A program made the position numbers and the translations under genes. DNA of 64,000 nucleotides, taken from NCBI GenBank assembly GCA_947311435.1, contig CAMZKT010000009.1, positions 1-64,000 of the forward strand, written 5' to 3'. Within the stretch, counting starts at the first letter, position 1. Every line of letters starts with the position of its first letter. The stretch comes from an uncultured Desulfocapsa sp. (GTDB lineage Bacteria; Desulfobacterota; Desulfobulbia; Desulfobulbales; Desulfocapsaceae). A model generated the notes under the pieces. It saw only the letters and a program-made list of their open reading frames with translations, was not told the DNA's origin and did not search any database. Positions 1,754-38,229 of the stretch are shown here, in pieces.

Positions 1754-4700
1754 TCAGGAAATAGAAAGAAACTGAAGCTCAGGTTGAAGAGTTTTGACCC
1801 TATTCTTCCAAAGAGGACAATTCGCATGAATACACTCTTTGTTTTTCCTATACTGTGAGCAGCGAAGCATCCCTTTCGCCTCCATGGGTACAGAAAGTAT
1901 TGTTTCCGACAGCCTTGCAGTCTCGGAAAGGGCAAGCCAGGTCTCCCGTTGACAACAGCGACCTCCACAGTACTGAGAAATATACGATAGTATCCTTGCT
2001 GTGAAATCCTGTGCTACCTGTCTCGGTATCGGTGTAAGAGGTGTTGCCGAAAGTATTGTTGAAACCGCAATACCGGTGCCAATTGCAGCTCCGCATGCTC
2101 CCCAGAATCCGCAGACACCACCTGGAATACCTGCACCACGACTAATACCTGCACGAATGGCCTCTTCCTTTAATTCGCCTCCGCTGTTACGAAAACACGC
2201 AAGAATAATGCCTGGAATCATCGCATGATGTTCCGGGCCATGCATTGGAATGGAAGGGTGGTTACGGATCAGTTCGAGCAAAGTGATGAGATCCCGCTCC
2301 TGTGTATCCCCGCAAATTCTTTGAATCACTTCCATCCCATTTTCTCGATGACAACCATCGCAAACAAAGTGACTCTGTTCACAACAAGCATTTGTAGAAA
2401 AGAAACCGCCGCAATAGTTGCAAGCCATTTCCTGAGCAGTCGTAAAATACTGTAAATCACCCCCACAAACCATGCAGCCTTCATTACTCCGCTCTGTAGA
2501 TTTATTATCCGAAGGGTCTTCGCAACAACCAGAGGAGCTTGGAACACAACAATTTTCGACAATATAAGATATTTCCGGCTGCGGAGAACAACAGGAGTTT
2601 TTCATTTCAATATTGGTCACCACCCCCTTTACGTCTACAACAAAAACAGAGTCATCCAACACGGATAATTCTTGACGTGGTATGGAAGTACGCCTTCCTT
2701 TAGCCAAAAAAATACCGGATTCTGTGTAAACTGCTCCATACGGCCCTCTGTATATCACATCAACAAATGCTTCTCCCATGGCAGGACGAAAAGCTTCATA
2801 AGTGAGAGAAAAAAAATCCACATTCTCAACCTGACGGTACGGAAAACGCTTAATAAAACGAATCAGACTAAAACCGGCAGCCTCCATCATGACCACCAAC
2901 TCTTCCTGCTGCATGGCACCGCCCAAACACTCGCCCCGATATCTAACATTATTCTTCAAAGATACAGGAATCGCTGTATCCGTAACAATATCAGAAACAA
3001 CCAGCCTACCCCCAGGTTTCAAAATACGAAATATCTCCTGGTACGTCATACGCTTGTCCGGACTGAGGTTAATAACGCAGTTGGAAATCACCACATCCGC
3101 GACATCGCTATCCAGTGGGATCTTCTCAAGAAACCCCTTTTTAAATACCACATTTTGGTAGCCCAGACGTTCACTCACCTGTTTTTGTGATTCCATGGCC
3201 AACTCCAGCATTTCATCCGTCATATCGATGCCGTAAACCTGACCGTCCCTGCCAACAGAAGAGGAAGCCATAAAACATTCGATGCCGGCCCCTGATCCTA
3301 GATCCACCAATGTTTCTCCCTTTTGCGGGTCAGCATCCGTGACCGGGCTTCCACACCCATAGGAATGTTTTTTAGTCTTTCCCGGAATAAAGTCAGCATC
3401 GGCCTGAGCAGGCGCCAAAGGATTAAGTATATCGTCGTTTGCATTCAATGCTGCTTCCCCATAAAACTCCCGAACGGAACTGTGCCCATGGTCAGATGCC
3501 AGGGAAATAAGACAGTTGCAATGGGTCAACGCAACACCAGTTGGCTCCTCGTCATCATCAGGACAATCATACCTGACATCTCCCATACGCAAAAGGATGC
3601 CCCTTTTTCCCTCACGTGTATATTTTCCAGCCTGATCTGCAATCAACTGTAGAGCAATTTGATTGTAAAGCTCCACATACGGGTCATACCCGACCCACTT
3701 CCCTCCACACATAAAACTGTGATCCACATCCCCTCCCCCCACCAGAAACTTAAGAGGGTTTTTCCGATACGCAGGAGAATCGACCAGGCTGGAGTTGCGC
3801 AACTTCTGCAAGACAGGACTTGTCTTCCACACTTCAGCCAGGCCCCGATCCAGATGTCCACAGGCTGTTTTCTCCATGCAAACAAGGGCAGGAGAAGGAT
3901 AAATCACTCCGTCAGGGCCAACAGCCACAGACTCCCAACCGGTATTTGACAAATCATAACGAGTGCCGGGAGTTGAAAACACCTGGCTTCGCACACTTTC
4001 AATGTTATCTACGCTGAGTCCTAGCTCCTCTGCACGCCTCCACGCCGCCAACAAAGCAGGAAAAATAGTCTCAGCAGGTATAAACTGCTCCCGGCTCCCT
4101 TTGCCACGGATAAAATGATAGAGAAAATGAATAGAGACAGCTCCCATTTCTGCAGCAACATCCACCACTTTTGATAAATCCTTTATATTTTCACTGCTAA
4201 TGGCCATTGAAAGGGTAAAGGGTATCTCCGCTTTTTTAATAGCCCTAAGATTTTTCATCAATTTTTTATAGCTTCCTTTGCCCCGCAGCCCATCATGAGA
4301 TTTCTCAAGACCATCAAGACTGACCTGTAGGTGAAGCCTTTCAAGTCCAGCTATTTCACTCAGAAACTGCTCAAGCAACATCCCGTTAGTTAATACCGCG
4401 GCATGCACCTCTTTATTAGCAGTAAGCAATCTTCCTAAAAATTTGAGAAAATCGGAATAAAGGAAAGGTTCCCCGCCGGTAAAAGAAAAAAGGCGACAGC
4501 CAAGCGCCAGAGCCTGTTCAACACCACTCTCAAGAAGTTTTGGGAGGAGACTCCGTGTTTTTGCTGGAGAGGAGCCAAAAAGGCAATGTCGGCAACTGAG
4601 ATTACAGGCATCGCTAATGTGAAACCAACACTCTTTCAGCTGGCTCAACTCAAGCATTGCAGCACGGCCAGTATACGGCTGCTTCACTTCCTTTGAAAAA

Positions 4701-4882
4701 GCATTTTCAAGGAGTGTGCGCTCATAAAAGCTGTCGTCATGTTTGTTTTCTGAGCGAAGTATCCTGTCGGCTTGAGAAGAAAGAACTATCCAGTCAGGAA
4801 TGTCCGCCTGAACATACAAAACCTGCTCCGCCAATTCGAAACGCTGCCAATCCTTCATAGGTCCGTACTTTTTATCCATCAT
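1754..4882 (-). CDS. Multidomain fusion: radical SAM + ArsM-like SAM methyltransferase + Cys-rich/DUF5714-like C-terminus
   Basis: Radical SAM motif DACNLSCRHC; methyltransferase LVDLGSGAGIECF...VYGIDMTDEMLELA with ArsM-type cysteines (YGCGSP, SNCVIN, GECLGGA); C-terminal CxxC clusters and MHGPEHHAMIPGI...GAGIPGGVCGFWGACGAAIGTGIAVS. Confidence 0.85.
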   Translation of the reverse strand: MMDKKYGPMKDWQRFELAEQVLYVQADIPDWIVLSSQADRILRSENKHDDSFYERTLLENAFSKEVKQPYTGRAAMLELSQLKECWFHISDACNLSCRHCLFGSSPAKTRSLLPKLLESGVEQALALGCRLFSFTGGEPFLYSDFLKFLGRLLTANKEVHAAVLTNGMLLEQFLSEIAGLERLHLQVSLDGLEKSHDGLRGKGSYKKLMKNLRAIKKAEIPFTLSMAISSENIKDLSKVVDVAAEMGAVSIHFLYHFIRGKGSREQFIPAETIFPALLAAWRRAEELGLSVDNIESVRSQVFSTPGTRYDLSNTGWESVAVGPDGVIYPSPALVCMEKTACGHLDRGLAEVWKTSPVLQKLRNSSLVDSPAYRKNPLKFLVGGGDVDHSFMCGGKWVGYDPYVELYNQIALQLIADQAGKYTREGKRGILLRMGDVRYDCPDDDEEPTGVALTHCNCLISLASDHGHSSVREFYGEAALNANDDILNPLAPAQADADFIPGKTKKHSYGCGSPVTDADPQKGETLVDLGSGAGIECFMASSSVGRDGQVYGIDMTDEMLELAMESQKQVSERLGYQNVVFKKGFLEKIPLDSDVADVVISNCVINLSPDKRMTYQEIFRILKPGGRLVVSDIVTDTAIPVSLKNNVRYRGECLGGAMQQEELVVMMEAAGFSLIRFIKRFPYRQVENVDFFSLTYEAFRPAMGEAFVDVIYRGPYGAVYTESGIFLAKGRRTSIPRQELSVLDDSVFVVDVKGVVTNIEMKNSCCSPQPEISYIVENCCVPSSSGCCEDPSDNKSTERSNEGCMVCGGDLQYFTTAQEMACNYCGGFFSTNACCEQSHFVCDGCHRENGMEVIQRICGDTQERDLITLLELIRNHPSIPMHGPEHHAMIPGIILACFRNSGGELKEEAIRAGISRGAGIPGGVCGFWGACGAAIGTGIAVSTILSATPLTPIPRQVAQDFTARILSYISQYCGGRCCQRETWLALSETARLSETILSVPMEAKGMLRCSQYRKNKECIHANCPLWKNRVKTLQPELQFLSIS

Positions 4883-4888
4883 ATTCAG

Positions 4889-5530
4889 TTATAATTCCTT
4901 TCCGATACGCAGCTGCTTGTCCTGCAAACGTTCTTCATATACAGACACGAGCAAAAAGGTGGCCAGAGGTTGAGCCAAAACCAGGGCAAAGGGAACAGAC
5001 CCGCCCAGAGACATAATTACCAGGTAAAACACCATAAGAACAATTTGATCGCGAAGAGGTTTTCTCACCGCCATACACCAGGACTCTTTAATGGCCTCAA
5101 AAAGCCCCATGTTTTTGTCTGTCATCAATGGCATCATATAGATTGTGGAAAAAGCCAGGAAACCAACAACAAATATACCCGGTAAAATCAGGAGTATAAA
5201 ACCAACAGCACTTGCCAGGGCAGCTAAAATCCCAAACGCCAGAAGGGGGAAAAAAAGACGCATCTCAGAAAACAGGTCACCAACTTTTGGCTCACGACCT
5301 TCGCGCATGGTTCTGAGCAAGGATTGTATATAACCGGCAGTGGTGACTGGTGCCAGGAGACCGAAACTCAAAGTGACGACTATTAGCTGTATCAGAGTCA
5401 GTATGATGACTGGTACAATATATTGCAGGGTATTTTCCCAGGAAATTTTCAAATGTTCTTTGAAGTCCATTCCATTCCTTCCTTGTATTTGTAGACAGCT
5501 CCTGAGAGAGTTGTCGTTTTTACTGTACAT
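4889..5530 (-). CDS. Integral membrane protein of unknown function
   Basis: Several hydrophobic helices. Start may be internal (MDFKEHLKISW, near 5470). Ends a few bp upstream of the fusion gene on the same strand. Confidence 0.7.
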   Translation of the reverse strand: MYSKNDNSLRSCLQIQGRNGMDFKEHLKISWENTLQYIVPVIILTLIQLIVVTLSFGLLAPVTTAGYIQSLLRTMREGREPKVGDLFSEMRLFFPLLAFGILAALASAVGFILLILPGIFVVGFLAFSTIYMMPLMTDKNMGLFEAIKESWCMAVRKPLRDQIVLMVFYLVIMSLGGSVPFALVLAQPLATFLLVSVYEERLQDKQLRIGKEL

Positions 5531-14549: not shown

Positions 14550-15131
14550 TTAGGAGTCGCCCCTTAAGCTTTCAAGTAAATCAACAAAAGAAGCCACACT
14601 CGTATCAATCGACGATGAATTATCAAAACGAACAAGATTACGGGCTTTAACTGGCAGATCAGAACGGGCAAGTCGTTTTTTTATCTCCTCACTCCCTTCT
14701 CTCCGTCTCCCTTCCAGGCGACTACGAAGAATCTCCGGGGCAACACTTACCAATATTGTCGTTACCATTTGACCTGGCTTTTCAAAGTCGGTTATTGCAG
14801 TACGGGAAATAGAAATGACCGCCACTCCTCCTGGCTGTAAATTCTCCAAATGACGCCTGCCTATTCCATAGTAATTCCCATGTGCCTGCCAGTGACTGAC
14901 AAAAAAGGCACGATCACGGAGAAAAACAAAGGCTGGTTGATCGATATAATAATTTTTTTCGCTCTCATCCGGCTGGCGCGTGATATACCGTGGAACAAAG
15001 CAAAAACTGCCATCCCCCTGCAAATGACTTGATGCCGCCCGTAACAAGGTATCCTTACCTGAACCACTCGCCCCCACAAGCAACACTATATGTGTTTTTT
15101 TATTCATTCCTGTCAGCCTGTTCTTAACCAT
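14550..15131 (-). CDS. phnN: Ribose 1,5-bisphosphate phosphokinase PhnN
   Basis: P-loop VGASGSGKDTLL, RYITRQPDESE, position after phnM. Confidence 0.93.
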   Translation of the reverse strand: MVKNRLTGMNKKTHIVLLVGASGSGKDTLLRAASSHLQGDGSFCFVPRYITRQPDESEKNYYIDQPAFVFLRDRAFFVSHWQAHGNYYGIGRRHLENLQPGGVAVISISRTAITDFEKPGQMVTTILVSVAPEILRSRLEGRRREGSEEIKKRLARSDLPVKARNLVRFDNSSSIDTSVASFVDLLESLRGDS

Positions 15132-16289
15132 TTAGCCGCACAAACACCCTAGAGAACTGTAAATAATATCTCCTTCTTTCATTGTTGTTACCACCTTGGG
15201 GACATCCCGGTCATCAATAACAAGTAGATCTGCAATCAGCCCCGAGGTTATCTCTCCCCTGTCTCCAAGGCCGCTGATCGTTGCAGGAACAGTACTGACC
15301 ATACCGATTGCCTGTGCCAAATCCATTCCCATCTCTCTATTCATTATCCAGGCGGCTTGAAGCATGGATGACGGATGGTAATCCGAACAAAGGTAATCGC
15401 AGCAACCGTATTTAATCAATTCTCTAGCCGAAATGTTACCGCTCTGGCTTTTCCCCCTAACCACGTTGGGGGCACCCATACCAGCATGGATACCAGATTG
15501 AATAGCATATTGTGCAGTCTCAATATTGAGTGGGAACTCAGTGACACTGACTCCAAGCTCTTTTAACAGATCAATTTTTTCCGGTCGGTCATCGTCATGC
15601 GACAGAGCCACCAAATCATGCTCGGCGGCAAAGGCCAGCAGCTCCCGCATCAATTTATAAGCCTTGTTCATATCGATCCCTTCTTTCTTCTCAATAATAG
15701 TCTCAGCTTCTTCATCACTGAGATCAAAAACCGGCTTGTGATAATTTTTCCACGCTTCAATTGTCTTGAATTGCCCCTGCCCAGGATTATGATCCATGAT
15801 GGAAACCATCTTTACACAGCGTTCCTCTATCAGTTTTTTGATCGCCTCGGCAGACTTGAATGATGATATTTCATATCGGGCATGAATGTAATTATCGACG
15901 GCAAGTGCACTGCGATTGACAGAATCCATTTCCCTGATAATCTGAACCGCAGCCTCCGTTGCCCGATTTCCACTCAAGGCCTCATCATTGAAGGAAACTG
16001 CATGAAACATGGTGGTTATCCCGGCCATGGCCAACTTTCTATCCAATTCAATAAGACTTGGTCGAATGGGAAACATGGCTCCTGGCCGTGGTTCTATCTC
16101 TTTTTCCACCGCATCGGAATGCAGGTCCACAAAGCCCGGTGTGATCAGGAAATCATCAAGTTCAAGGGCGTCCACTTCACTGCCATATGAAGCTATGTCT
16201 GCTATCAAACCACCGATAATCACCAAATCTGCCGGACGGATAGTATCTTTTACCAGCACTCGCTGTGATCGAAGTATGGTTGCTTTCAT
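15132..16289 (-). CDS. phnM: Alpha-D-ribose 1-methylphosphonate 5-triphosphate diphosphatase PhnM
   Basis: Amidohydrolase fold, VDLHSDAVEKEIEPRPGA, MDHNPGQGQF, SHDDDRPEK. Confidence 0.96.
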   Translation of the reverse strand: MKATILRSQRVLVKDTIRPADLVIIGGLIADIASYGSEVDALELDDFLITPGFVDLHSDAVEKEIEPRPGAMFPIRPSLIELDRKLAMAGITTMFHAVSFNDEALSGNRATEAAVQIIREMDSVNRSALAVDNYIHARYEISSFKSAEAIKKLIEERCVKMVSIMDHNPGQGQFKTIEAWKNYHKPVFDLSDEEAETIIEKKEGIDMNKAYKLMRELLAFAAEHDLVALSHDDDRPEKIDLLKELGVSVTEFPLNIETAQYAIQSGIHAGMGAPNVVRGKSQSGNISARELIKYGCCDYLCSDYHPSSMLQAAWIMNREMGMDLAQAIGMVSTVPATISGLGDRGEITSGLIADLLVIDDRDVPKVVTTMKEGDIIYSSLGCLCG

Positions 16290-17002
16290 GAGTTATATTC
16301 CATTATATTAAATTCATTATCGGCTATCTGTTCCATGCGTTGTCGATCATGAAAAATCGCCAGAATACAAATCCCCTGTTGCTTCAGATTGTTCAATATT
16401 TCCAGAACCATGGCAGCGGATTTGTCATCAAGAGAAGCTGTGGGCTCATCAAGAAGAAGGAGTTTTTTCGGTGCAATAACACCTCTTGCAATATTCACTC
16501 TCTGCTGTTCCCCACCTGAAAAAGTTAGAGGTGAAAGAGAAAACAAATCCTCCCTGATATATAAACGTCTGAGCAAATCGACCGCCTCTGCTCTAGCATT
16601 TTCAAGTCCCCTGCCAAGTGCAACCAGGGGAGCTGCCACCACATCCACGGCTGATACTCTTGGGAGAATTTTTAGAAACTGAGTGACAAAACCGATATCA
16701 GCACGTCTATACTCCAGCATTTCGCTGTCGCTACAAGCGGCAAGATCAACCAGTTGCCCGCCTCTCTGCAGTAAGACCTGCCCGCTCCCTGGTTTGTAGG
16801 TTCGATAAATTGTTTTCAGTACCGAAGACTTACCAGCACCACTTGGTCCCGTAAGTGCCAGAAGTTCTCCCGGATCTATGCAAAAGGAGACATCTGAAAA
16901 AGCTTCAATTTCTATTGCTCCCCGATTATGGAGAGTGAAGGATTTACTAAGTTTGCTAACGCGAAGCCTGTATGATGAAGAAGGAGAAGTCTGCATAATC
17001 AT
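16286..17002 (-). CDS. phnL: C-P lyase ABC protein PhnL
   Basis: Walker A GPSGAGKSS, FSGGEQQRVNIARG, LLLLDEPTASLD; order in operon. Confidence 0.94.
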   Translation of the reverse strand: MIMQTSPSSSYRLRVSKLSKSFTLHNRGAIEIEAFSDVSFCIDPGELLALTGPSGAGKSSVLKTIYRTYKPGSGQVLLQRGGQLVDLAACSDSEMLEYRRADIGFVTQFLKILPRVSAVDVVAAPLVALGRGLENARAEAVDLLRRLYIREDLFSLSPLTFSGGEQQRVNIARGVIAPKKLLLLDEPTASLDDKSAAMVLEILNNLKQQGICILAIFHDRQRMEQIADNEFNIMEYNS

Positions 17003-17835
17003 AAAACCGAGGAAACCAAGAGTTGAGTGTAAACATGCTGGGGGTCTTCCAGTACCTGATCGGTCAGCCCCTGCTCGACGATTGAACCATTACGCATGAC
17101 CACAGTGATATCTGTTAAGTGACGAATAACCCCTAAATCATGGGAAACGACAATCATGGAAAAAGATAGTTCTTTCTGCAAAACACGAATCATATCAAGA
17201 ATCTGAGCCTGAACAGATACATCGAGCCCGGTTGTCGGCTCATCGAGAAGCAATAGCCTCGGAGATGCAGCAAGAGCCTTGGCAATCTGAATCCTCTGCT
17301 GTTGACCGCCGGAAAAAGTTTCTGGAGACTGGTCGATACGGCTGACTGGAAGATCCGTCTTTTCAAAAAAATAACAGGCACTCTTTCGTATATCTTCATA
17401 ATTTCTTTGACCTGCGGCAATGACCTTCTCGGCAATATTCCCCCCTCCTGAAAAAAGAAAATTCAAGCCCAGGCGTGGATTTTGATATATCATCGCCATC
17501 ATGGTGTTCCGCATCAGTACGGTTTCCATCATATTCAAACCTGCGATATCAACCGGCTCACCATCTTCACCTTGCATTTCCCTGAAAAACATCTTTCCTT
17601 CGGTGGTTTTGGTATCACGGTAAATGAGCTGGAGCAGTGTGGACTTGCCGGAACCCGACTCCCCGACAATACCAAGAACCTCGTTATCCTCCACCCGCAG
17701 GTTAATACGATTTACTGCAACCACCGCACCGCAAACAGGACAAATGGCAGTTCCCATGTCATCACCGGTGAGAGCGATACATTGACCACAGGATTTCCCA
17801 TAAACTTTACTCAGATTTTCAATTTCAAGAAGCAT
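16999..17835 (-). CDS. phnK: C-P lyase ABC protein PhnK with a four-Cys insertion
   Basis: MLLEIENLSKVYG start (trimmed), Walker A GESGSGKST, FSGGQQQRIQIAKAL; CGQC...CPVC before Walker A. Confidence 0.93.
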   Translation of the reverse strand: MLLEIENLSKVYGKSCGQCIALTGDDMGTAICPVCGAVVAVNRINLRVEDNEVLGIVGESGSGKSTLLQLIYRDTKTTEGKMFFREMQGEDGEPVDIAGLNMMETVLMRNTMMAMIYQNPRLGLNFLFSGGGNIAEKVIAAGQRNYEDIRKSACYFFEKTDLPVSRIDQSPETFSGGQQQRIQIAKALAASPRLLLLDEPTTGLDVSVQAQILDMIRVLQKELSFSMIVVSHDLGVIRHLTDITVVMRNGSIVEQGLTDQVLEDPQHVYTQLLVSSVL

Positions 17836-18694
17836 GGCTTTTCCGACTCTCCAGGGTCTGATCACAAAAATCACTGTCACTACAATAATATTGAACTTCC
17901 CCGTCCTTCTTTAAGGTATCAAAAAAGACATTTTCTGCTCCACAGCGCATACATGATTTCCCTGTGAAATCCTCCATCTGAAAGGAGCGGTCATCAAATA
18001 CAATCGGTTTGACCTTTGTATAAGGGGGAATGGCATAAATTCTCTTTTCTCGCCCGGCACCAAAGAGCATCAGTGCCGGATTATCATTCAGCCGGGGGAT
18101 GTCATAGCGGGGTATGGGAGATGGATCCATGATAAAATGATCATTTACCTCCACCGGATACCTGCTCGCTATCCTTGAGTCACCAAAGCTTGCAGTGTCT
18201 TCATAAAGAAGAACCCATAATTTTGAATATTCCAGATGGGCATGCATCTTTTTCTGCTTGTCCGTATCGGGTTCAACCACCGTCAGCACGTCTGGAGTGG
18301 GTACCTGGAAAACCAGAACCTGTTCTTCTGTCAAGGCTGTCTCCGGTACACGATGTCGTGTCTGGATGATGGATGCCTCCCCTGTAGTGGAAGTCGCTCT
18401 CACATCGGTGGTTGCCACAATAAATTCTCGTATATTCACTGCATTGACAGAAGCATCGCAGCCCTGGTCAATAACTTTTATGGTATCTGCCTCTGTAATG
18501 ATACTCAGACTTATCTGTAAACCTCCGGTTCCCCAGCCTCTGGCCAACGGCATTTCACGGGAGGCAAAGGGGACAATATATCCGGGGAGAGCAATTCCCT
18601 TTAAAATTGCTCTACGAATCTCTTTCTTGGCATCTTCATCAAAGAAGGCAAAGGAAATCTCAACCATTTTCGTCATGCTCCATGGCCCGTTCAA
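17825..18694 (-). CDS. phnJ: Alpha-D-ribose 1-methylphosphonate 5-phosphate C-P lyase PhnJ
   Basis: Canonical PhnJ; C-terminal CMRCGAENVFFDTLKKDGEVQYYCSDSDFC supplies the conserved cysteines. Confidence 0.97.
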   Translation of the reverse strand: MNGPWSMTKMVEISFAFFDEDAKKEIRRAILKGIALPGYIVPFASREMPLARGWGTGGLQISLSIITEADTIKVIDQGCDASVNAVNIREFIVATTDVRATSTTGEASIIQTRHRVPETALTEEQVLVFQVPTPDVLTVVEPDTDKQKKMHAHLEYSKLWVLLYEDTASFGDSRIASRYPVEVNDHFIMDPSPIPRYDIPRLNDNPALMLFGAGREKRIYAIPPYTKVKPIVFDDRSFQMEDFTGKSCMRCGAENVFFDTLKKDGEVQYYCSDSDFCDQTLESRKSHAS

Positions 18695-19727
18695 GGGTTT
18701 TAATGTCTGCCTGGAATGTTACATAATGTGGCATTTTGAAATGATCGGTGAAGCCCATGGATTCTATACCATCAATATGATGGAAAATTATTTCAGGATC
18801 TGTGGCAATACTCTTCTCACCGACGGAATAGTGCGGGTAACTCATGGCAAGATCAAGGATGGACATGGATATGGCCTTGGTTTCATTGAACCCAAAACAA
18901 AAACCAAATCCCGAGGTCAGGCGCAGGTTATTATCCTTTGAATCCCTTTGAAAACTTCCCACCGACTCCACCGCAGTGACACGTATTTCTCCAACGACTA
19001 CAGCCTTGCCAGTGAGGGGATGAATCATTTTCACCGCTGCCATACCAAGACGAAGATCACCAATTGTGGGATGGATGTCGCCATAACCACGAAGCGAAGT
19101 ATAGGCAAAGCCCAGCATGGACCCAGTTTCACCACGAGCCATGACCTGCATCATGCTTGAACGGGGATATGGAGGAAGAGGCGATGACCTGGTAATATCA
19201 ACAGGTTTTCTTTCATTCTCTTTTACTGCAACTGTCATGATTAGCCCTCGGCTTCGCAGATCGGAAAGACCACTGGGAAGAGGGTGCTGTATTTTCCTGC
19301 TACCATCCCCACCATCAATAGCTTCCAACAGATCCGAGCCATGGCCGGCAAGTAGTTTTAAAATAAAATCACTGGAAGGCCCGAGGATCTGCCCGCCTTC
19401 AATCTCCTTGAATGCCGATGAAATCCGACGAATCACACGGATTTCTCCGCCATTTATGGCCAGGGATTTTCCGGCACGACGACAGGTGGAGCGATGAGCC
19501 CTGAGATAAAATGCAGCTTCCAGCAGATTACACCCTGATACATGAATGGCTCTTACCGCCAGTTTTTCTGAATAAAGAGCACCCTCTCCCATGATCCGGT
19601 CAATTCCAAAAATCAGCTTCGAAGTGTTACTGTCTTCGAGTAAAAATTCTCCATCCAACATTTTTTTAAACAGATTTTTAGATCGTCCAATGGCCTCGCT
19701 GCCTCCTTTGATAGCGACATAACTCAT
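18660..19727 (-). CDS. phnI: C-P lyase subunit PhnI
   Basis: MSYVAIKGGSEAI start, length and position. Confidence 0.96.
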   Translation of the reverse strand: MSYVAIKGGSEAIGRSKNLFKKMLDGEFLLEDSNTSKLIFGIDRIMGEGALYSEKLAVRAIHVSGCNLLEAAFYLRAHRSTCRRAGKSLAINGGEIRVIRRISSAFKEIEGGQILGPSSDFILKLLAGHGSDLLEAIDGGDGSRKIQHPLPSGLSDLRSRGLIMTVAVKENERKPVDITRSSPLPPYPRSSMMQVMARGETGSMLGFAYTSLRGYGDIHPTIGDLRLGMAAVKMIHPLTGKAVVVGEIRVTAVESVGSFQRDSKDNNLRLTSGFGFCFGFNETKAISMSILDLAMSYPHYSVGEKSIATDPEIIFHHIDGIESMGFTDHFKMPHYVTFQADIKTLERAMEHDENG

Positions 19728-20278
19728 CCCGACACCTCTATTCTTGTTGTCCTTGGCATTCCGAGAATGTCTCCATTTTCATTCAGAAAAAAGCAATCTA
19801 CACCAAGAGGAAACATTGTGTTCGATTCAATAAGTGCCTCAACAAATGACACATCAACCGGGAGAGTGGCCGCCCGAGTCGTCTTGATCCCCGGCCCTGA
19901 AAGGATTAACTGAGTGGTGTTACTCCTTTGAGCGGTGGGGATCATAAAAAACAAGGTTGCAGAAAGCTCGGGCGAAACAAATGTTCCCTTGCTGGCCTCC
20001 TTGACGACCACCGGGTCAGGAGTTTTGCAAAAAAGATATTCCGCCTCTTCAACAGCAGCTGCAGGCGAACCAGTAAGAGCTCTGATTTGCTGTTCCTCTT
20101 CAGTATCCTCAAAAAAGCTTGAGACTTCCGGATACAAAAGACAACATGCCAAAGCATTCAATGGAGAACCGAACAAAGGCTCAATTTTCCCTGTCGTACC
20201 TGGTCGGGACAACACATCCATACAGACACGAAAATTAAATCTGTTACTCTTTTCCAGGTCGAGTTGTGAAATAGCCAT
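19724..20278 (-). CDS. phnH: C-P lyase subunit PhnH
   Basis: FRVCMDVLSRPG, GPGI, FPLGVDCFFLNENG, PRTTRIEV; position. Confidence 0.94.
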   Translation of the reverse strand: MAISQLDLEKSNRFNFRVCMDVLSRPGTTGKIEPLFGSPLNALACCLLYPEVSSFFEDTEEEQQIRALTGSPAAAVEEAEYLFCKTPDPVVVKEASKGTFVSPELSATLFFMIPTAQRSNTTQLILSGPGIKTTRAATLPVDVSFVEALIESNTMFPLGVDCFFLNENGDILGMPRTTRIEVSG

Positions 20279-20330
20279 AAGATTAATTTAATACTTCAAA
20301 TAGTGAATTTGTGAGACGAATCGAGATCTG

Positions 20331-20750
20331 TTACAAAAGGTCAAAGGAAACTCTTGTTTCGGCAACCATTTCCTGTTCACAATCCTGACTCAACATAAGA
20401 TTTCTTTTCCCGTCTTTCGCTAATTCTCTTATCTCTGAGAGATAGAGCTGTGCTGCCCAGGCACCATCAAGAATGGCAAGCTGTAAAGCAAGCTCACTAT
20501 TGTCGTCCATGGCCATCCCCCATCCGTTCTCTTTTTCTACCGTTACAAGAGCCGCCGTAACCAGTACTTCCCCTGCATAAAATTCTGTATTACTTACAGG
20601 ATCATGCACAGGGACAAGAAGTGTCTGAGGGGAAGGTTTCTGAATGAGTTCAATCTGATGCTTACAAATTACCTTATCAACAAGTTCCTTCAAATCAGTA
20701 CTGTCCGTATGCTGAAGAAAATGATTCAACTCCTCACGATTTATTTCCAT
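20331..20750 (-). CDS. phnG: C-P lyase subunit PhnG
   Basis: FYAGEVLVTAALV, GWGMAMDDNSELALQLAILDGA; position. Confidence 0.93.
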   Translation of the reverse strand: MEINREELNHFLQHTDSTDLKELVDKVICKHQIELIQKPSPQTLLVPVHDPVSNTEFYAGEVLVTAALVTVEKENGWGMAMDDNSELALQLAILDGAWAAQLYLSEIRELAKDGKRNLMLSQDCEQEMVAETRVSFDLL

Positions 20751-20800
20751 TACGTTTATCCTCTATACAAAAATTTACAATTCACCGACCCTGTAACTGC

Positions 20801-21631
20801 CTATAGAAGCATGTTTCTTAAACGGGAAGAGAGCATATCAATCAAACTGACCGTCAGAACCATAACAATGATTATTGCCGATGCCTTATCATATTGGAAC
20901 GACCTGAATGACTCATAAAAAATAAATCCTATCCCGCCTGCCCCAACAATTCCAAGCACTGTAGCGGAGCGTACATTGGTTTCAAAGCGATACAGAGCAA
21001 GGCTTGCCCAAAGTGGGATAACCTGAGGAATGACACCATAAATAATTTCATGAAGATATCCTGCACCCGTGGATCGAATGCCTTCAACCGGTCGGTTATC
21101 AATGGCTTCCACCGCTTCTGAAAAAAGCTTGGAGATAATTCCCATATTGTGAATAAACAAGGCCATAACTCCTGCAAGCGGGCCGAGCCCCACGGCCGCA
21201 ACAAAAAAAATGGCGAAGACAAGCTCATTGATGGCTCTTGAGGCATCCATTAATCGTCGGGCAGGAAAAACTACCCAGGCCGGTGCAATATTTTGTGAGG
21301 AAAGCAGCGCAAACCCTATTCCAAAAAGCACAGACAGGAACGTACCCCATACTGCCATATGGACGGTTTCAAGCATTTTCTGAATAAAAACCGGAAGATC
21401 TGTGAAATCAGGACTGAGAAAATCTTTAAAATAAATAAACATATTACCGGAATCAGAAAAGAGCATTGTCCAGTTGTTTATTTCCGCAGGATAATAAGCA
21501 ATCCCCAGAATAACAGCCAGGAACAAGGCTGCTGCGACTCTCCCGGACATTTGCCGCCAACGAGGTTTCAACTGCCTGGCCACTGCAAGAGATATGTCCT
21601 GCGTATATTTTTGTGTTTGTACCGTATTCAT
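20801..21631 (-). CDS. phnE: Phosphonate ABC transporter permease PhnE
   Basis: TM permease with SRAINELVFAIFFVAAVGLGPLAGVMAL and ATVLGIVGAGGIGF. Confidence 0.95.
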   Translation of the reverse strand: MNTVQTQKYTQDISLAVARQLKPRWRQMSGRVAAALFLAVILGIAYYPAEINNWTMLFSDSGNMFIYFKDFLSPDFTDLPVFIQKMLETVHMAVWGTFLSVLFGIGFALLSSQNIAPAWVVFPARRLMDASRAINELVFAIFFVAAVGLGPLAGVMALFIHNMGIISKLFSEAVEAIDNRPVEGIRSTGAGYLHEIIYGVIPQVIPLWASLALYRFETNVRSATVLGIVGAGGIGFIFYESFRSFQYDKASAIIIVMVLTVSLIDMLSSRLRNMLL

Positions 21632-21758
21632 AGTTTATCAGCGGTTTGTGTGGAAAACTCCTGCGTATTCACCCGAAGCGTTTAAGAAAGAAATACCCGG
21701 CACCGTAAACAAACAGTGCCGGGATGTTCAAGCAACTCCTTCTCTTTCAGCAATGTGG

Positions 21759-22808
21759 CTAATACCCTGCATCACCAATGACTTTCTGCATCTTCTCCAA
21801 CTGGGCAAGAATGGCTTCTGCTTCTTTAACTCCTGCTGTATCATCTTTCTTTTGTGCCTTCAGTTTCTTTTTGAAAGCCTCAATTCTACGCACATCCATA
21901 AGCTGTGCATTGGAGGAGGCCAGAAAAGGTCCCCAACCATCGGAAAGATTTTTCAGAACCGTACGTTCTCTTGCCACTTTTTCCATATCGCCAAAGCGAC
22001 CATATTGAATGAAAAAGAACAGAATCTTTTCCTTCAATTCCTGGGGCAAATCCTTCCTCCAGACCATTGGATCTGATGGAATAAGGGGTGAACGCCAGAT
22101 TTCTTTGATCTCAGCAAACATTTTAGGGTTCGTTTTAGCTAACCGGGCATAAATGGACTCGGTGTTGTTGGTTGCCACATCAACTTTTTTGGTGGCAACG
22201 GCCATGGCATTCCCTTCATGATTGGAACTTACCACCCTTTTGAAGCACTCTTCCGGAGTTTTACCATTCAGTGCCCACACATAATACCCGGGAATTGCAA
22301 AACCAGAGGTGGAATTGGGATCTCCATTACCGAATGTTTTGGTTTTATCGCACTTAAGGACATCTTCGAGCGAATTGAGTTCTGAATCTTTATGGGCAAT
22401 TAAGAGGGAATAGTAGCCCTTGGTTCCATCAAAACCGATGGTTTGGGCAAATACCTCGCCACCCGCCCGATCAACAGCTTCAATGGCAGACTTATTACCA
22501 AACCATGCCAGATCAACTTTTTTAAAACGCATTCCTTCGATAACACCCGCATAGTCGGAGGCAAAATATGCCTTGACTGGAATCCCGACAAATTTCTCCA
22601 TATCATTCAAAAACGGCTTGAAATTTTTCTCGAGCATTGACGATGATTCTGTTGAAATAATACCAAAATTCAATTTCTTGGGTGTTTCTGCCAAAGCTGC
22701 ATTGCCGCTGGTCAATAGAGCAAGTGCAACAACCGCACAAACGCTTGTCACTGTCTTCTTTACAAACATGCTTCTCTCCTGTTTACATTGTTGTGTTTTT
22801 CTTTTCAT
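21759..22808 (-). CDS. phnD: Phosphonate ABC transporter substrate-binding protein PhnD
   Basis: LNFGIISTESSSMLEKNFKPF, SDYAGVIEGMRFKKVDLAWFG. Likely start at the internal MFVKKTVTSV. Confidence 0.95.
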   Translation of the reverse strand: MKRKTQQCKQERSMFVKKTVTSVCAVVALALLTSGNAALAETPKKLNFGIISTESSSMLEKNFKPFLNDMEKFVGIPVKAYFASDYAGVIEGMRFKKVDLAWFGNKSAIEAVDRAGGEVFAQTIGFDGTKGYYSLLIAHKDSELNSLEDVLKCDKTKTFGNGDPNSTSGFAIPGYYVWALNGKTPEECFKRVVSSNHEGNAMAVATKKVDVATNNTESIYARLAKTNPKMFAEIKEIWRSPLIPSDPMVWRKDLPQELKEKILFFFIQYGRFGDMEKVARERTVLKNLSDGWGPFLASSNAQLMDVRRIEAFKKKLKAQKKDDTAGVKEAEAILAQLEKMQKVIGDAGY

Positions 22809-22858
22809 TTTCTTCCAACCTATTCATTCATTTAAACAACTTCGCTAACTCTTCTATA

Positions 22859-23674
22859 TCAAGCCGCCATTTGAAGCCTATCCTTCTCTTTTTCGTGACC
22901 CGGGACAACACCATATAATTTCACAAGCTCTTCCTCTCCAAGTGCTGCAGCTGGTCCGTCATAAACAATCCTACCGTCTTTCAGTGCCACAATCCGTGAA
23001 CAACGCTCGGCAGCAACCTCAAACTGATGTAAGGAAACAACGACTGTGTTATTGTCCCGCATATTTATTTCAGCAAGAAGATCCATAACCCGTTCCGATG
23101 ATGCCGGATCAAGAGAGGCAATGGGTTCGTCTGCAAGAATTAATTTGGCCTCCTGAGCCAGTGCTCTGGCAATGGCTCCACGCTGCTGTTGGCCTCCGGA
23201 AAGAGTTGATGCTCGCTGATGGGCATACTCGATCATGTTCACTCGTTCCAATGCTTCAAGTGCTTTTATTTTCTCAGCCTTTGGAAAACAGTTCAACCAG
23301 CCGCGCCATGAAGGATTGTGGGCGAGACGACCTATCAAAACATTGGTGAGCAGGGAAAGCCTCCCAACCAGGTTAAATTGTTGGAAGATCATTCCGACAT
23401 CTCGTCTTACCCGACGTTGATGGCTGGTCTGAGCATTCGTTCTCTGCGTCTCCTTACCAAGAATTGAAATGTACTCGCTGGATTTATCCATAACTTCCAG
23501 ACCACCTATCAAACGTAGTAAGGTGGACTTTCCCGAGCCGGACGCTCCGATAAGACCAACCATTTCCCCTGCCCGAACCTTGAAATTGATATCCTTTAAC
23601 ACTTTGTTACTGCCAAATGTTTTATGAAGTCCCTGCACATCAATAACCACTTCTCCAGCCTCAATTATGCTCAC
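22859..23674 (-). CDS. phnC: Phosphonate ABC transporter ATP-binding protein PhnC
   Basis: Walker A GASGSGKST, LSGGQQQRGAIARAL, DEPIASLDPASSERVMDLL. Confidence 0.96.
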   Translation of the reverse strand: MSIIEAGEVVIDVQGLHKTFGSNKVLKDINFKVRAGEMVGLIGASGSGKSTLLRLIGGLEVMDKSSEYISILGKETQRTNAQTSHQRRVRRDVGMIFQQFNLVGRLSLLTNVLIGRLAHNPSWRGWLNCFPKAEKIKALEALERVNMIEYAHQRASTLSGGQQQRGAIARALAQEAKLILADEPIASLDPASSERVMDLLAEINMRDNNTVVVSLHQFEVAAERCSRIVALKDGRIVYDGPAAALGEEELVKLYGVVPGHEKEKDRLQMAA

Positions 23675-32054: not shown

Positions 32055-33704
32055 ATGGCCACTCAAAAAGCACCCTCTCTAGGTAAACTCCTGAAAGAGA
32101 AAGGTCTTGTCACAGAAGAACAGATAGTATTTTCCCTCCAGGAACAAAAAGCCACAGGTGAGTTACTTGGCGGCTGCCTCATGCGCCTGGGAATCCTCAC
32201 CGATTCTGATCTTGCCCGTGCACTTGCCGAGCAGAGTGGTCATCCTTTTGTTGACCTGCACAGCTTTACCCCCGATCCTGGGCTTCTAGCCAGAATTCCA
32301 TTCCGAATCGCTAAACAATTTCAATTTTTGGTGCTCGCTGAAAAAGATGGTTTGCTCCACATTGCCATCTCCGACCCCTTTTCAACCAGTGCCCAGGAAC
32401 AGGCTTTTAGAATAACAGGTGTACAGGTCAAGCTGCATATAGGCGGCGAGATGGAACTTCTGAAACTCATCGAACGCTTCTATTATCTGCTTGAAAATCC
32501 CATCGAAAAAGAAATTGAAAACGTGGTCGGCAGGCTTCGCCGCAATCCGGATGGGGAGATAAATGTCGAGAAACTTGTGGAGAATCTTCTGGGGGTTGCT
32601 GTCACCTACCGGGTAACAGACATGCACATCAGCCCAAGCGATATCTCGACCAGGATCATGTTTCGAGTTGACGGCGTTATGCGCCCTGCCCATGTCTTCC
32701 CCCATGCGCTTCACAATCGTTTGATTACCAATATAAAGGTTCGCGCGGGAATGGATATTTCTGAGCAACGAAAACCCCAGGATGGCCGGATGTCCTTTGA
32801 GTTTTTGGGAGAATACTTTGACATCAGACTCTCAACAGTGCGAAGTAACTTTGGTGAAAACATGGTCCTACGCCTGCTAGCCTCAAGAGGTAGCTCTGTT
32901 TTAGGCATTAAGGATCTCGGTTTTGAACCCGACAAAATCCGATCTCTTGACCGTCTTTTCAGCTCTCCATACGGAATGGTTCTGGTCACAGGCCCCACCG
33001 GCAGCGGCAAATCGACCACCCTTTACGCAGCCCTGCGTGAGCAGGATTCAATCAGTAAAAACATTCTTACCATTGAAGACCCCATCGAGTATCAACTGTT
33101 GATGATCCGCCAAACCCAGGTAAATGAAAAAGCCGGCTATACATTTTCCTCAGCCATCAGATCCTTTCTCCGCCAGGATCCCGATGTCATGCTAATTGGT
33201 GAGATCAGGGATGAGGAAACTGCTCTACTCGGTGTCCGGGCTGCCCTGACCGGGCATCTTGTCCTTTCAACACTCCACACCAATACTGCTCTTGGTACCC
33301 TGGCCCGTTTAAAAGATCTCGGGATAAGTTCCTACCTTCTCTCAACCGGCCTTGCAGGGGTTCTGGCTCAACGTCTGATCAGGAAACTCTGCCCTCACTG
33401 TAAAGAACAGACGGAGCATTCTCCCGAAGAACTCAAGGCCTATGACCTTCCTCTTCAAGCTGCGTATTTTAAAGCAGTGGGTTGCAGTCAATGTCGAGAC
33501 GTCGGGTTCAATGGTCGGGAATGTATTTCTGAACTTCTCGTCTGCTCAGAGGCAATTCTTCGCCTGGTGGCACGAGATGCCCCCTTGGGTGAAATCCTTG
33601 ACCAGGCAAGAGATGAAGGGTTCTCAGACCTGAAAACATCGGGAAGAGGAAAGGTTATTTCCGGAGTCACCAGTCTCATGGAATTAAAAAGGGTTCTTGG
33701 ATAA
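32055..33704 (+). CDS. GspE/PilB/MshE-type secretion ATPase
   Basis: N-terminal tandem MshEN-like motifs, Walker A GPTGSGKSTTLYAAL, Asp box, LCPHCKE zinc motif. Confidence 0.93.
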   Translation: MATQKAPSLGKLLKEKGLVTEEQIVFSLQEQKATGELLGGCLMRLGILTDSDLARALAEQSGHPFVDLHSFTPDPGLLARIPFRIAKQFQFLVLAEKDGLLHIAISDPFSTSAQEQAFRITGVQVKLHIGGEMELLKLIERFYYLLENPIEKEIENVVGRLRRNPDGEINVEKLVENLLGVAVTYRVTDMHISPSDISTRIMFRVDGVMRPAHVFPHALHNRLITNIKVRAGMDISEQRKPQDGRMSFEFLGEYFDIRLSTVRSNFGENMVLRLLASRGSSVLGIKDLGFEPDKIRSLDRLFSSPYGMVLVTGPTGSGKSTTLYAALREQDSISKNILTIEDPIEYQLLMIRQTQVNEKAGYTFSSAIRSFLRQDPDVMLIGEIRDEETALLGVRAALTGHLVLSTLHTNTALGTLARLKDLGISSYLLSTGLAGVLAQRLIRKLCPHCKEQTEHSPEELKAYDLPLQAAYFKAVGCSQCRDVGFNGRECISELLVCSEAILRLVARDAPLGEILDQARDEGFSDLKTSGRGKVISGVTSLMELKRVLG

Positions 33705-34909
33705 TGGCACTCTACGTCTATACGGTCACGGATTCCAGCGGACAAGTTCATAAAGATGAAGGTGAGTTTGCTTCACTCCCTGAAATGTTCACGGCTCTGG
33801 AGAATAAAGGACTGACCCTTGTTTCATACCGTAAACAACTCTTTGCCGGCAATGGATTTTCCGCCGGTCGTTCCATCTCCAGAACTGAGCTTGCAGAATT
33901 TTTCCGCAACCTTGCTCTTCTGATACATGGCGGTGTCCCCCTCTGCGATGCATTGGCAGACCTGATAGAGGGCAGTGGCAAATCCCAAATAGCGCAGGTC
34001 TTTGGCCGGATACAGAAAAGGCTGGAAGAAGGCTCACTCTTCTCGGAAGGCCTGGAAGAAGAGTCTAAATACATACCACGAATCATCCTGCCTCTGGTAG
34101 CCATCGGAGAAGAGACAGGACAGCTTGATCGAACACTGAAAGATGCGGCAACTCACCTGGAAAAAATTCAGGAGATACTCTCAGCCACCCGCCGGGCTCT
34201 TATCTATCCTTGCTTTATCCTTACAGCCATGTCAGGCGCCTTTATCTTCTGGATGGTCTATGTGCTTCCACAGCTTCTCGAACTATTCAGCTCCATGGGT
34301 ATGACGGAACTCCCGCTGGCAACACGAATCCTCATTGCTTCGGTACACTATTTTGATATTTTCTGGCCGGTGATTCCTCTCTTTCTCGGGTCCTTTCTCT
34401 TCCTCTATGCCTTCTCACGTAAAAACGAACGACTCCGTTATTTCTGGGACAGCGGTATGAACCATATCCCCGTGATGGGCGGCATCATACGCTCCTCCCA
34501 GCTGGCATTCTTTTTTGAATACACATCATTGTTGACAGGCGGTGGCATACACATCGTGCGAAGCCTTGAACTCATGCAGGAATCCGTTGGCAATCGAGTC
34601 CTGAAGAGAAGCATCGGCCAGATAAAAGAAGATATCATTACAGGAGAATCCATGTCCACAGCCATCGCTCAACTCAAATACTTTGAGCCATTCGTCTTAC
34701 GTATGGTACGGGTGGGAGAACAGACGGGGAATATGGCAGAACAATTTAAGATTCTGGCAGACTACTACATGAACCGGGTAAACAAAATGGTGGAAGCAAT
34801 GTCTAAAACGCTTGAACCCTTTATTATCGGCATTGCCGGGCTTGTCTTCATGGTCATCGCCATGGGACTTTTGGGCCCGGTATACAATCTCGTCTCCACC
34901 ATACAGTGA
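33704..34909 (+). CDS. GspF/PilC/MshG-type inner-membrane platform protein
   Basis: GspF layout: FFRNLALLIHGGVPLCDALADL and FFFEYTSLLTGGGIHIVRSLELM repeats, TM helices. Confidence 0.92.
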   Translation: MALYVYTVTDSSGQVHKDEGEFASLPEMFTALENKGLTLVSYRKQLFAGNGFSAGRSISRTELAEFFRNLALLIHGGVPLCDALADLIEGSGKSQIAQVFGRIQKRLEEGSLFSEGLEEESKYIPRIILPLVAIGEETGQLDRTLKDAATHLEKIQEILSATRRALIYPCFILTAMSGAFIFWMVYVLPQLLELFSSMGMTELPLATRILIASVHYFDIFWPVIPLFLGSFLFLYAFSRKNERLRYFWDSGMNHIPVMGGIIRSSQLAFFFEYTSLLTGGGIHIVRSLELMQESVGNRVLKRSIGQIKEDIITGESMSTAIAQLKYFEPFVLRMVRVGEQTGNMAEQFKILADYYMNRVNKMVEAMSKTLEPFIIGIAGLVFMVIAMGLLGPVYNLVSTIQ

Positions 34910-34913
34910 AAGT

Positions 34914-35780
34914 ATGAAACAGCCGAACAGGGTATCCAACTATCTGCAAAGCTATGGTCTCACCACTGCGCCTTTCAGACTTTCTCCTGATCCGGAGTTT
35001 TTCTTCCCATCCAACACCCACATAGCAGCACGGGAGGTTCTAAAACACTCCATCCAGAACAATGAAGGTTTTATGGTTCTCTCTGGACAGGCTGGAACCG
35101 GTAAAACTCTGCTGCTCCGACTTTTACTCAAAGAGGTGGAGAAAGAAAAACATTCTGTTCTCATTATCAATCCTGTGCTGACACCGGCTGCTCTCCTCCA
35201 CCAGATCCTCGCCGAACTTGGGTTCAACCTTGATCCTGCCACTGGTGAAGCTGGTCTTATGACAGCCTTTCAGAAGATCCTTTTCAAGCTGGCGGCGAAA
35301 AATAAAGATCTTCTTATCATCATTGACGAAGCCCAGAATATGCCGCTGGCGACCATGGAATATCTGCGCATGCTTTCAAATATTGAAACCAGCCGAAAAA
35401 AACTCCTGCAAATCCTCTTAACCGGCCAACCCGAACTGGACATACTTCTTGAAGATGTAAGCCTGGCACAGCTCAACCAGCGGATTGTCGTTCATGAGAA
35501 ACTTCGTCCCCTATCTGCAAAAGAAACCGTTGAATATGTAAACTACCGCCTGGCCAAAGCGGGTCGCGGAGACATCGGGCTCACCTGGTTTGCCAAAAGA
35601 GCATTGTATCGCTTAACAGATGGTATCCCCCGCCTAATAAATCGGCTCATGGACAGAACACTGTTAATGGCCTGTACTGATTATGATACAAAACTGTCTC
35701 GAAAACATATCTGTGCCGCAGATTCCACTCTCCCAAAAGGATACAGAAAAAAAGGGCTTTTTCTGTTTTTCTGTAGATGA
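34914..35780 (+). CDS. ExeA/MshM-like AAA ATPase
   Basis: YGLTTAPFRLSPDPEFFFPS, Walker A GQAGTGKTLL, IIDEAQNMP; start trimmed from 34812. Confidence 0.9.
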   Translation: MKQPNRVSNYLQSYGLTTAPFRLSPDPEFFFPSNTHIAAREVLKHSIQNNEGFMVLSGQAGTGKTLLLRLLLKEVEKEKHSVLIINPVLTPAALLHQILAELGFNLDPATGEAGLMTAFQKILFKLAAKNKDLLIIIDEAQNMPLATMEYLRMLSNIETSRKKLLQILLTGQPELDILLEDVSLAQLNQRIVVHEKLRPLSAKETVEYVNYRLAKAGRGDIGLTWFAKRALYRLTDGIPRLINRLMDRTLLMACTDYDTKLSRKHICAADSTLPKGYRKKGLFLFFCR

Positions 35781-35798
35781 AAACTTCACAGGCCAAAC

Positions 35799-37253
35799 AT
35801 GAATAATCCACAGTGGATACTCCAAAGAACTCCCAATGGGCGCTTGTTGGGCACTTCAATCAAACGCAGGGGAAAGGTGTTTCATTGCGCAGCAGTTCAA
35901 GAGATATCTGATTCCAGCAGGCTTAAGGGGAAAGCCTGTATCTGCATGGATTCCTACAAAACAGTTGTGGAAGTTGCTGAGTTCCCACTGGTAAAAAAGA
36001 ATATCCTTCAACTGCAAGTCAAAAACAGAATCGAACTTCTTGCAATTTTTGATGTCAATGAAGCTTTTACCATTTCCCACAAGCTTATCAGCCAACAGGC
36101 ACAGGTCCAGTTGTTGAGTATTATCGCAATCCCCGAGGAACTCATTGTTTCTGGTATTCACAAGCTCACCGAATCATACAATATCGATCTTATAAACTGC
36201 GTTTCCATGGCTGCATCTGTAGCGAGTCTTTTGCAACAACTAAGCCACGAAGCCTTTATTGTACTCCTGATAAGCAGGCATAAAGCATATGTCCTTGGTG
36301 TTCAGGATGGAAATGCGTTGTTTATCCAAGGTGTTCCAATAGGCTACGGTGGAGAAGTAGAGCCTGATGCAACCATGCATGCCATAACTATTGGGAGACA
36401 AACTCTTGCCAGTAAATTTGAAATCGAATCAAGTCGTTTCCTCTGCATGGGAGAAGAAAGAGGAAAAGTAAACTGTGAAGATCTGGGGGAAGAAAACTGG
36501 ACACCCGACTGGAGTCACTGTCTCAAAGCGAATGGCCAGGATGTTCTCCACTACCCCGCTCTCTTCGGCACTCTTTTTACCCATGGCAACTACTCGTACC
36601 TTCCGGACGAATATGTTCTGGCACTCCGCTTAAAGCAACTCAGTCGCTCCCTGGTTTTTGCTGCCTCCTTTGGTACTGTTCTTCTTTCGGGATTGTATTA
36701 CATGAACCTGCAAAAAATTATCCCTCTTCGTGCTCAGCTTCAAAAAGAACGTATGAATGTATCGCAGGATATTGACAGGTTAAGACAAAAACTTCCCTCC
36801 CCCGACACTGTCTCGAGAATAAATTCCTATATACACATTGAAGAAGGTGCTGCACAACAAGCATCTGTCTCCCAATTCCTGCAGCGAATAGCTTCTGTTT
36901 TACCTGATAATGTACTACTGCTGGGCATGGAAATAACACGAAAGAGTGGCAGCAAAGAACAGGAAAATTTGGCTGTAGTCCCGGCTCCTGGTCAATTCCC
37001 CGCCATGGAGCCAGAGCTCTCCGGTCAGACGACCAGCAAAGCAAAGGCGGAATCACTTCTTGAGCAGCAACTCAGTGTTCAATTCAGTTGCATAAGTGAA
37101 GGGGATTACAGCCGGGTAAAGGCCAGATTTGAAAAAGCAGTCAAAGGCTTCTCTTCACTCTTTGCCCTCCGTTCAATTAGCTGGGGATACGATGAAAACA
37201 ATTCACAAGGCCATCTGGACTGCGAATTGCTGCTTAACGGAGAAAAAAAATGA
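35799..37253 (+). CDS. PilM/PilN (MshI)-like pilus biogenesis protein
   Basis: Position after the MshM-like gene; actin-like N-terminal region, then TM helix and coiled coil. Confidence 0.6.
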   Translation: MNNPQWILQRTPNGRLLGTSIKRRGKVFHCAAVQEISDSSRLKGKACICMDSYKTVVEVAEFPLVKKNILQLQVKNRIELLAIFDVNEAFTISHKLISQQAQVQLLSIIAIPEELIVSGIHKLTESYNIDLINCVSMAASVASLLQQLSHEAFIVLLISRHKAYVLGVQDGNALFIQGVPIGYGGEVEPDATMHAITIGRQTLASKFEIESSRFLCMGEERGKVNCEDLGEENWTPDWSHCLKANGQDVLHYPALFGTLFTHGNYSYLPDEYVLALRLKQLSRSLVFAASFGTVLLSGLYYMNLQKIIPLRAQLQKERMNVSQDIDRLRQKLPSPDTVSRINSYIHIEEGAAQQASVSQFLQRIASVLPDNVLLLGMEITRKSGSKEQENLAVVPAPGQFPAMEPELSGQTTSKAKAESLLEQQLSVQFSCISEGDYSRVKARFEKAVKGFSSLFALRSISWGYDENNSQGHLDCELLLNGEKK

Positions 37254-37732
37254 TTTTTTTAACTCCCCGTATAAATAAATTAACGCTCCTCTTCCAACTG
37301 ATGATTATTGTCCTTTTTGCTTTCTCCCTCTATTTATACCTGGCCAGCAGGGTGGAAGAACGCTCCATCAGGCATGAACTTGAGCGACTCCCCTCTCAAC
37401 GTGTTCAACTTAAACAGACCCTGAAAACTCTTGCTGCCTATCATTCATTGCTGGAGTCCAATACTGCACTCACGACTCTCCCTTCGAGCCTCAACTGGGA
37501 GGAGGTTGAATTCAACTGGACATCGGTGTCCTTTGCGGAGCTTTTACAAAGAATTGACGAACTTTCTCGTCAACAGAAAATTTTTGTGCTGGAATCCTTT
37601 TCAGCACGCATTCAAAGCGGTGGGAAAACATCCCCCCGACAAACAAAAACTCCCGCAAAAACCACTGGCTTCCCGAATTTCAGTGACAGAATATTTCATA
37701 TGCGAGGATATTTTTTATGTCCAGCTCCATAA
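37250..37732 (+). CDS. PilO/MshJ-like pilus assembly protein
   Basis: N-terminal TM then coiled coil; position between PilN-like and secretin genes. Confidence 0.6.
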   Translation: MIFLTPRINKLTLLFQLMIIVLFAFSLYLYLASRVEERSIRHELERLPSQRVQLKQTLKTLAAYHSLLESNTALTTLPSSLNWEEVEFNWTSVSFAELLQRIDELSRQQKIFVLESFSARIQSGGKTSPRQTKTPAKTTGFPNFSDRIFHMRGYFLCPAP

Positions 37733-38229
37733 ATGACATCGGCAAAAGATTCACTTATTCTGCAATTCCACTCGCCCTTATCCTGACAAGTGGTGCCGCC
37801 ATATGGCTCGGGGCGATACACAGTGAATCCCAATTTCGAAATCCTCCTCTGCACCTTCCTGAATTTCACTTTCAATCCAGTGAGCATACAGTCATGGCAG
37901 AACCTCAAACCACTCCGGCTATGGAACAACGCTCTTTCCATGTTAGGCAGGAAGCCCACAACAATATTTTCGGCTCAGAAGTGGTGGCCAAACAGGAAGA
38001 CAGGAATCTGGAAACCATGGAACTGTCCCTTGGGCTCATCGTTATTAAAGGGAAAAACAGGTTTTGTCTCACCAATGGAGTTATGCTTGCTGAAGGTGCC
38101 AGTGTCAACGGTTTCCAGGTTCAACGTATTGAAGAGAACAGGGTGTGGTACAAAATTGCCGACTCTTTTTGCTCTCTTCAGCCAGGTGAAAGAAAAAATA
38201 TCGATATGGAAGGAAAGGTCATAGAATGA
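37717..38229 (+). CDS. PilP/MshK-like pilus assembly protein
   Basis: N-terminal TM, small C-terminal domain (GLIVIKGKNRFCLTNGVMLAEGASVNGFQVQRIEENRVWYKI). Confidence 0.6.
   Translation: MSSSINDIGKRFTYSAIPLALILTSGAAIWLGAIHSESQFRNPPLHLPEFHFQSSEHTVMAEPQTTPAMEQRSFHVRQEAHNNIFGSEVVAKQEDRNLETMELSLGLIVIKGKNRFCLTNGVMLAEGASVNGFQVQRIEENRVWYKIADSFCSLQPGERKNIDMEGKVIE

Follow-up and report, generated by a model that had tools for sequence, protein, structure and literature searches.

The question raised by this locus is what would be made by a single protein in which a radical SAM module is followed by an ArsM-type methyltransferase and a Cys-rich tail, and whether it could be an arsenic synthase that takes the place of the separate ArsM and ArsS enzymes of the arsenosugar pathway. 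The window (the whole stretch of DNA analysed, 64,000 nucleotides from an uncultured Desulfocapsa sp.) encodes the following features.

1754..4882, minus strand: triple-fusion ORF of 1042 aa, with relatives in 118 of the 258 genomes of its class
3449..4882, minus strand: radical SAM module, residues 1-478 (Pfam, alignments, Foldseek)
2585..3448, minus strand: ArsM-type methyltransferase, residues 479-766, with C510, C536, C602, C652 and the terminal CC pair C764-C765 (NCBIfam, PDB, Foldseek)
1754..2497, minus strand: Cys-rich tail, residues 796-1042, with CxxC at 803/806, 821/824 and 841/844 and DUF5714 at 853-1025
4889..5530, minus strand: membrane protein, 6 nt upstream of the fusion, with only weak family matches, below cut-off

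The 1042-aa frame contains no internal stops, and all the motifs quoted in the first-pass annotation (DACNLSCRHC, YGCGSP, SNCVIN, ECLGGA, NSCCSP, CMVCGG, CNYCGG, CDGCH and MHGPEHHAMIPGI) were found in it; together with the Pfam matches given below, this bears out the description of one ORF with three modules. The AlphaFold model of the full fusion protein had a mean pLDDT of 84.5. In a 57-row alignment, C93/C97/C100, C440, C457, C510, C602 and C652 were invariant except in one truncated row. The Cys pairs listed by the annotation fared unevenly: the CC pair at 764-765 is conserved, as is each CxxC pair from 803 onwards, but conservation does not extend to the two CC pairs between them (778-779 and 786-787). 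Selenocysteine at the CC motif was considered and rejected, since the ORF has no in-frame UGA and none was reported inside any fusion match.

The fusion was found in 118/258 genomes of its class and in 34/395 genomes sampled across Desulfobacterota, so that it is neither chance nor an assembly artefact, the latter having been a concern of the annotation. Inter-module distances were strongly correlated (rho 0.85-0.89), as expected if the three modules travelled together. The radical SAM module had 435 relatives in a scan of species genomes, and nearly all of the 80 loci kept carry the fusion; they come from Desulfocapsa, Desulfurivibrio, Desulfobacterales, Desulfoluna, Malonomonas, Atribacterota, Thermoanaerobaculia and Chitinivibrionales. 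Acidobacteriota and Atribacterota MAGs are thus among the carriers of relatives of the fusion. In a Planctomycetota MAG, a shorter form of 782 aa showed the first two modules only. At three loci (L056, L057 and L058) the fusion is present as two overlapping ORFs that meet near the Cys linker, possibly by frameshift or sequencing error.

The central module is of the ArsM type. Pfam Methyltransf_31 matched residues 520-670 (1e-29), and the best NCBIfam match was the arsenite methyltransferase PRK11873 (1.4e-64, 218 bits; below its cut-off of 263), followed by the arsinothricin ArsM (174 bits, cut-off 500), ArsM selenoproteins and then MbdU; the NF040538 match extends to the last position of that model. 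The closest PDB sequences were CrArsM, human AS3MT and CmArsM, with PDB 5evj matched at E 6e-35, and the first 13 PDB matches of a Foldseek search with the fusion model were all ArsM/AS3MT. The three cysteines that the annotation had placed in ArsM-like contexts, C510, C602 and C652, align with the As-binding C72, C174 and C224 of CmArsM and are invariant in 57/57 rows. Alignment to solved ArsM structures supports the prediction that these three cysteines are co-located. A counterpart of the first As-binding cysteine of CmArsM (C44, in the N-terminal loop) is missing from its usual place, residues 458-509 being devoid of Cys (the conserved C440 and C457 lie nearby), and this counts against an arsenic synthase.

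Pfam Radical_SAM matched residues 89-241 of the first module (9e-22, 78 bits vs a cut-off of 29.5), which is preceded by a small beta/alpha domain at about residues 10-65. The cluster motif CX3CX2C (C93/C97/C100) is present in 56/57 rows, the exception being the truncated row, and C440 and HxNC457 (here HCNC457) are invariant. A signature, GGGD(I/P)DHSY, in the C-terminal part of the module is conserved over widely different lineages. Foldseek assigned the module a SPASM-like fold, with matches to CteB, SkfB and anSME. Membership of the SPASM subclass was rejected in spite of this fold, since the auxiliary-cluster cysteines are absent; in the alignment, residues 300-435 keep only C341, and this only partly. 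Identity with ArsS was rejected as well, the TIGR04167 profile giving 41.5 bits against a cut-off of 300.

The tail matched Pfam DUF5714 (PF18978) at residues 853-1025, with 198 bits against a cut-off of 26.2, and most of its cysteines are invariant in the alignments wherever a DUF5714 tail exists. Modelled alone (AF2), the tail reached a pLDDT of 90.2 and found no fold match in the PDB (best E 2.2); a confident model with no such match suggests that the fold may be new. We found no mention of DUF5714 in the open-licence literature, and passages of a selenoproteome review from the same literature do not include a fusion of radical SAM and arsenite methyltransferase. The idea that DUF5714 is essential was unsupported, as four genomes carry a 787-aa form without the tail, no DUF5714 being found in those genomes, and in one genome (G408) DUF5714 is a separate ORF with a 4-nt overlap. 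A natural fission is seen at locus L092, where radical SAM-ArsM and DUF5714 are divided between two ORFs (1681-2685 and 2682-4967) that share 4 nt. The tail is best read as an accessory thiol/metal domain whose fold has no known counterpart.

The neighbourhood of the fusion differs between lineages. Within its own order, the fusion sits among housekeeping genes with no ars operon, which counts against an arsenic synthase. The membrane gene at 4889-5530 is probably co-transcribed with the fusion; it adjoins the fusion only in its own genus and at three other loci, and the proposal that it encodes a conserved transport partner was therefore abandoned. Outside the order, the fusion often adjoins the "arsenosugar biosynthesis" glycosyltransferases TIGR04282 (225 bits, cut-off 134) and TIGR04283 (258 bits, cut-off 182), along with a VTT-domain (TVP38-like) membrane protein, a MerA-like oxidoreductase and DUF3047. 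Among 19 loci from beyond the order, 8 had TIGR04282 near the fusion, mostly adjacent, within flanks that reached about 8 kb at most, and one Atribacterota MAG locus has both glycosyltransferases with the fusion. In the fusion's own genome the two lie side by side on another contig, and no ArsS was found. To our knowledge, the arsenosugar names of TIGR04282 and TIGR04283 rest on association, not assay.

Other features were recognized elsewhere in the window. Phosphonate breakdown is represented by a C-P lyase (phn) operon at 14550-23674 on the minus strand, with PhnJ, PhnI, PhnH and the phosphonate-binding PhnD identified by Pfam and PhnM, L, K, E, C and N assigned by order and appearance. An MSHA-like pilus biogenesis cluster (ATPase, PilC-like protein, secretin and pilins) was recognized by eye at 32055-43018, and a fatty acid cis/trans isomerase (CTI; Pfam, 871 bits) lies at 44643-47027 on the minus strand.

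We then compared genomes with and without the fusion among the 395 from Desulfobacterota. TIGR04282 was present in 34/34 fusion genomes (33 of these matches being above cut-off and one, in G614, weak) and in 154/361 others (Fisher, 2e-12). ArsS was found in one of the 34 fusion genomes, as compared with 113 of the 154 other TIGR04282-positive genomes (p 4e-15). These genome-level statistics are inflated by the shared descent of the genomes; at the level of families, their number being inferred, the association with TIGR04282 was 18/18 vs 59/88 (p 0.003). TIGR04169, the AhpD-like partner of ArsS, occurred in 0/20 fusion genomes and 8/10 others, and the fusion was the sole ArsM match in 15 of 20 fusion genomes. 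Among 12 genomes examined by way of their loci, some of them outside Desulfobacterota, ten have TIGR04282. The mutual exclusion suggests that the fusion and ArsS fill the same pathway slot and, from the co-occurrence and exclusion pattern as a whole, the fusion appears to stand in the slot of ArsS, ArsM and TIGR04169. Against such a replacement count 41 TIGR04282-positive genomes that have neither ArsS nor the fusion. Among 20 such loci examined, four (L207, L209, L217 and L224) carry a third, standalone radical SAM protein, as does genome G278. This protein, found in TIGR04282-positive genomes lacking both ArsS and the fusion, is about 520 aa long and scores 92-106 bits to the radical SAM module of the fusion; at locus L105 (2011-3567) it lies amid TIGR04282, TIGR04169-like and TIGR04283 genes. 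It is possibly a third arsenosugar type of radical SAM enzyme.

Taken together, the neighbours and the distribution indicate that the fusion probably replaces the separate enzymes used by other bacteria to build arsenosugars, and we think it reasonably probable that it is a bifunctional organoarsenical synthase performing the work of both ArsM and ArsS in one chain. The annotation had proposed a one-protein route to a methylated or alkylated thiophilic element, leaving element and product open. That route, taken as one to an alkylated arsenical, now has good support: the central module resembles ArsM in sequence and predicted fold, the cysteines of its As site are invariant, and the fusion is co-located with the glycosyltransferases and excludes ArsS. 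The genomic evidence points to arsenic and an arsenosugar-type product. Neither the transport partner nor SPASM membership is supported.

ArsS and ArsL are radical SAM enzymes that form C-As bonds and work with ArsM; the former adenosylates arsenic on the route to oxo-arsenosugars, and the latter is the aminocarboxypropyl-transferring enzyme of the arsinothricin pathway (PMC8552651, PMC12159101). We infer that the in-vivo substrate of the fusion is likewise arsenic. The ArsM module would bind As(III) via C510/C602/C652 and use SAM to methylate it. A single [4Fe-4S] cluster is predicted on C93/C97/C100 of the radical SAM module, which would reductively cleave a further SAM and add a carbon fragment to the methylated trivalent arsenic. 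By analogy with ArsS, this fragment may be the 5'-deoxyadenosyl group, the gene context favouring an ArsS-type product. Further conversion of the product would fall to the TIGR04282/TIGR04283 glycosyltransferases, whose genes lie on another contig here and adjoin the fusion in other genomes, and the DUF5714 tail may hold, relay or reduce the trivalent arsenical.

One alternative is ArsL-type chemistry, that is, aminocarboxypropyl transfer to an arsinothricin-like product. ArsL likewise partners ArsM and contains one CX3CX2C cluster (PMC8552651), and the arsinothricin enzyme ranks second among the NCBIfam matches of the ArsM module; however, the neighbours and co-occurring genes of the fusion are those of ArsS genomes, no arsQ-type gene came to notice in passing, and we regard this chemistry as unlikely. 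A little less likely still is that a peptide or protein is the substrate of the radical SAM module, as with a RiPP maturase, and that the ArsM module is a mere detoxifying partner. The nearest folds are indeed those of SPASM peptide maturases, which counts against a replacement of ArsM and ArsS, and the short N-terminal domain resembles the peptide-binding domain of such enzymes, whereas the auxiliary-cluster cysteines of these maturases are missing, a conserved small precursor gene did not come to notice beside the fusion in passing, and the distribution of the fusion tracks arsenosugar genes and excludes ArsS.

It seems quite improbable that another thiophilic element (Se, Hg or Sb) is methylated or alkylated, with the Cys-rich tail as metal binder. 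The tail does match positions 2-271 of MbdU (NF045648), named as a metal-binding double selenoprotein, with 125 bits against a cut-off of 600, and MbdU comes from a protein group linked to Hg/As handling (PMC13188914). However, sequence, fold and cysteines all mark the methyltransferase specifically as ArsM-like, and the linked genes carry arsenosugar names. Methylation of arsenic purely for detoxification, with a regulatory or scaffolding radical SAM part, would suit a complete ArsM module that is usually the only one in its genome, but is no less improbable, as the cluster cysteines and GGGD(I/P)DHS are kept over widely different lineages, as expected of a working catalyst, and the exclusion of ArsS would be left unexplained.

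A broader form of the bifunctional-synthase reading, which we put forward tentatively and would not yet rank above its negation, is that the fusion belongs to a third, independently recruited class of radical SAM enzymes making As-C bonds, fused to ArsM and converting As(III) to an adenosylated or related arsenical, that anaerobic sulfur bacteria keep it in their stable core genome, and that its metal domain of new fold acts as the arsenic carrier. If the fusion is indeed an organoarsenical synthase, the making of complex organoarsenicals would be common and vertically kept in anaerobic sediment bacteria, and algae and cyanobacteria would not be its main performers; this would bear on arsenic cycling. 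The fusion would also offer a single-protein model for the coupling of arsenic methylation to radical C-As bond formation, and a testable role, with a possible new fold, for DUF5714; it would further suggest that radical SAM chemistry on arsenic was recruited more than once.

Among known systems, the closest is the ArsM and ArsS pair of the arsenosugar pathway (Synechocystis and others), which likewise combines an As(III) methyltransferase with a radical SAM enzyme and co-occurs with TIGR04282/TIGR04283, the fusion and ArsS being mutually exclusive. That pair consists of separate proteins with no DUF5714 tail, and ArsS, often a selenoprotein and accompanied by the AhpD-like TIGR04169, represents a different radical SAM family (TIGR04167). 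The ArsM and ArsL pair of Burkholderia gladioli also joins a radical SAM enzyme with one cluster motif to ArsM, yielding a complex organoarsenical (arsinothricin), but by separate proteins, in another gene context and with another transferred group. The SPASM RiPP maturases CteB, SkfB and anSME share the predicted overall fold of the radical SAM module; unlike them, the fusion is without auxiliary-cluster cysteines and is joined to ArsM. With MbdU and the DUF5714 proteins the fusion has in common a tail that matches both families; it differs from MbdU in that this tail contains Cys only and no Sec, is fused to ArsM and a radical SAM module, and scores far below the MbdU cut-off.
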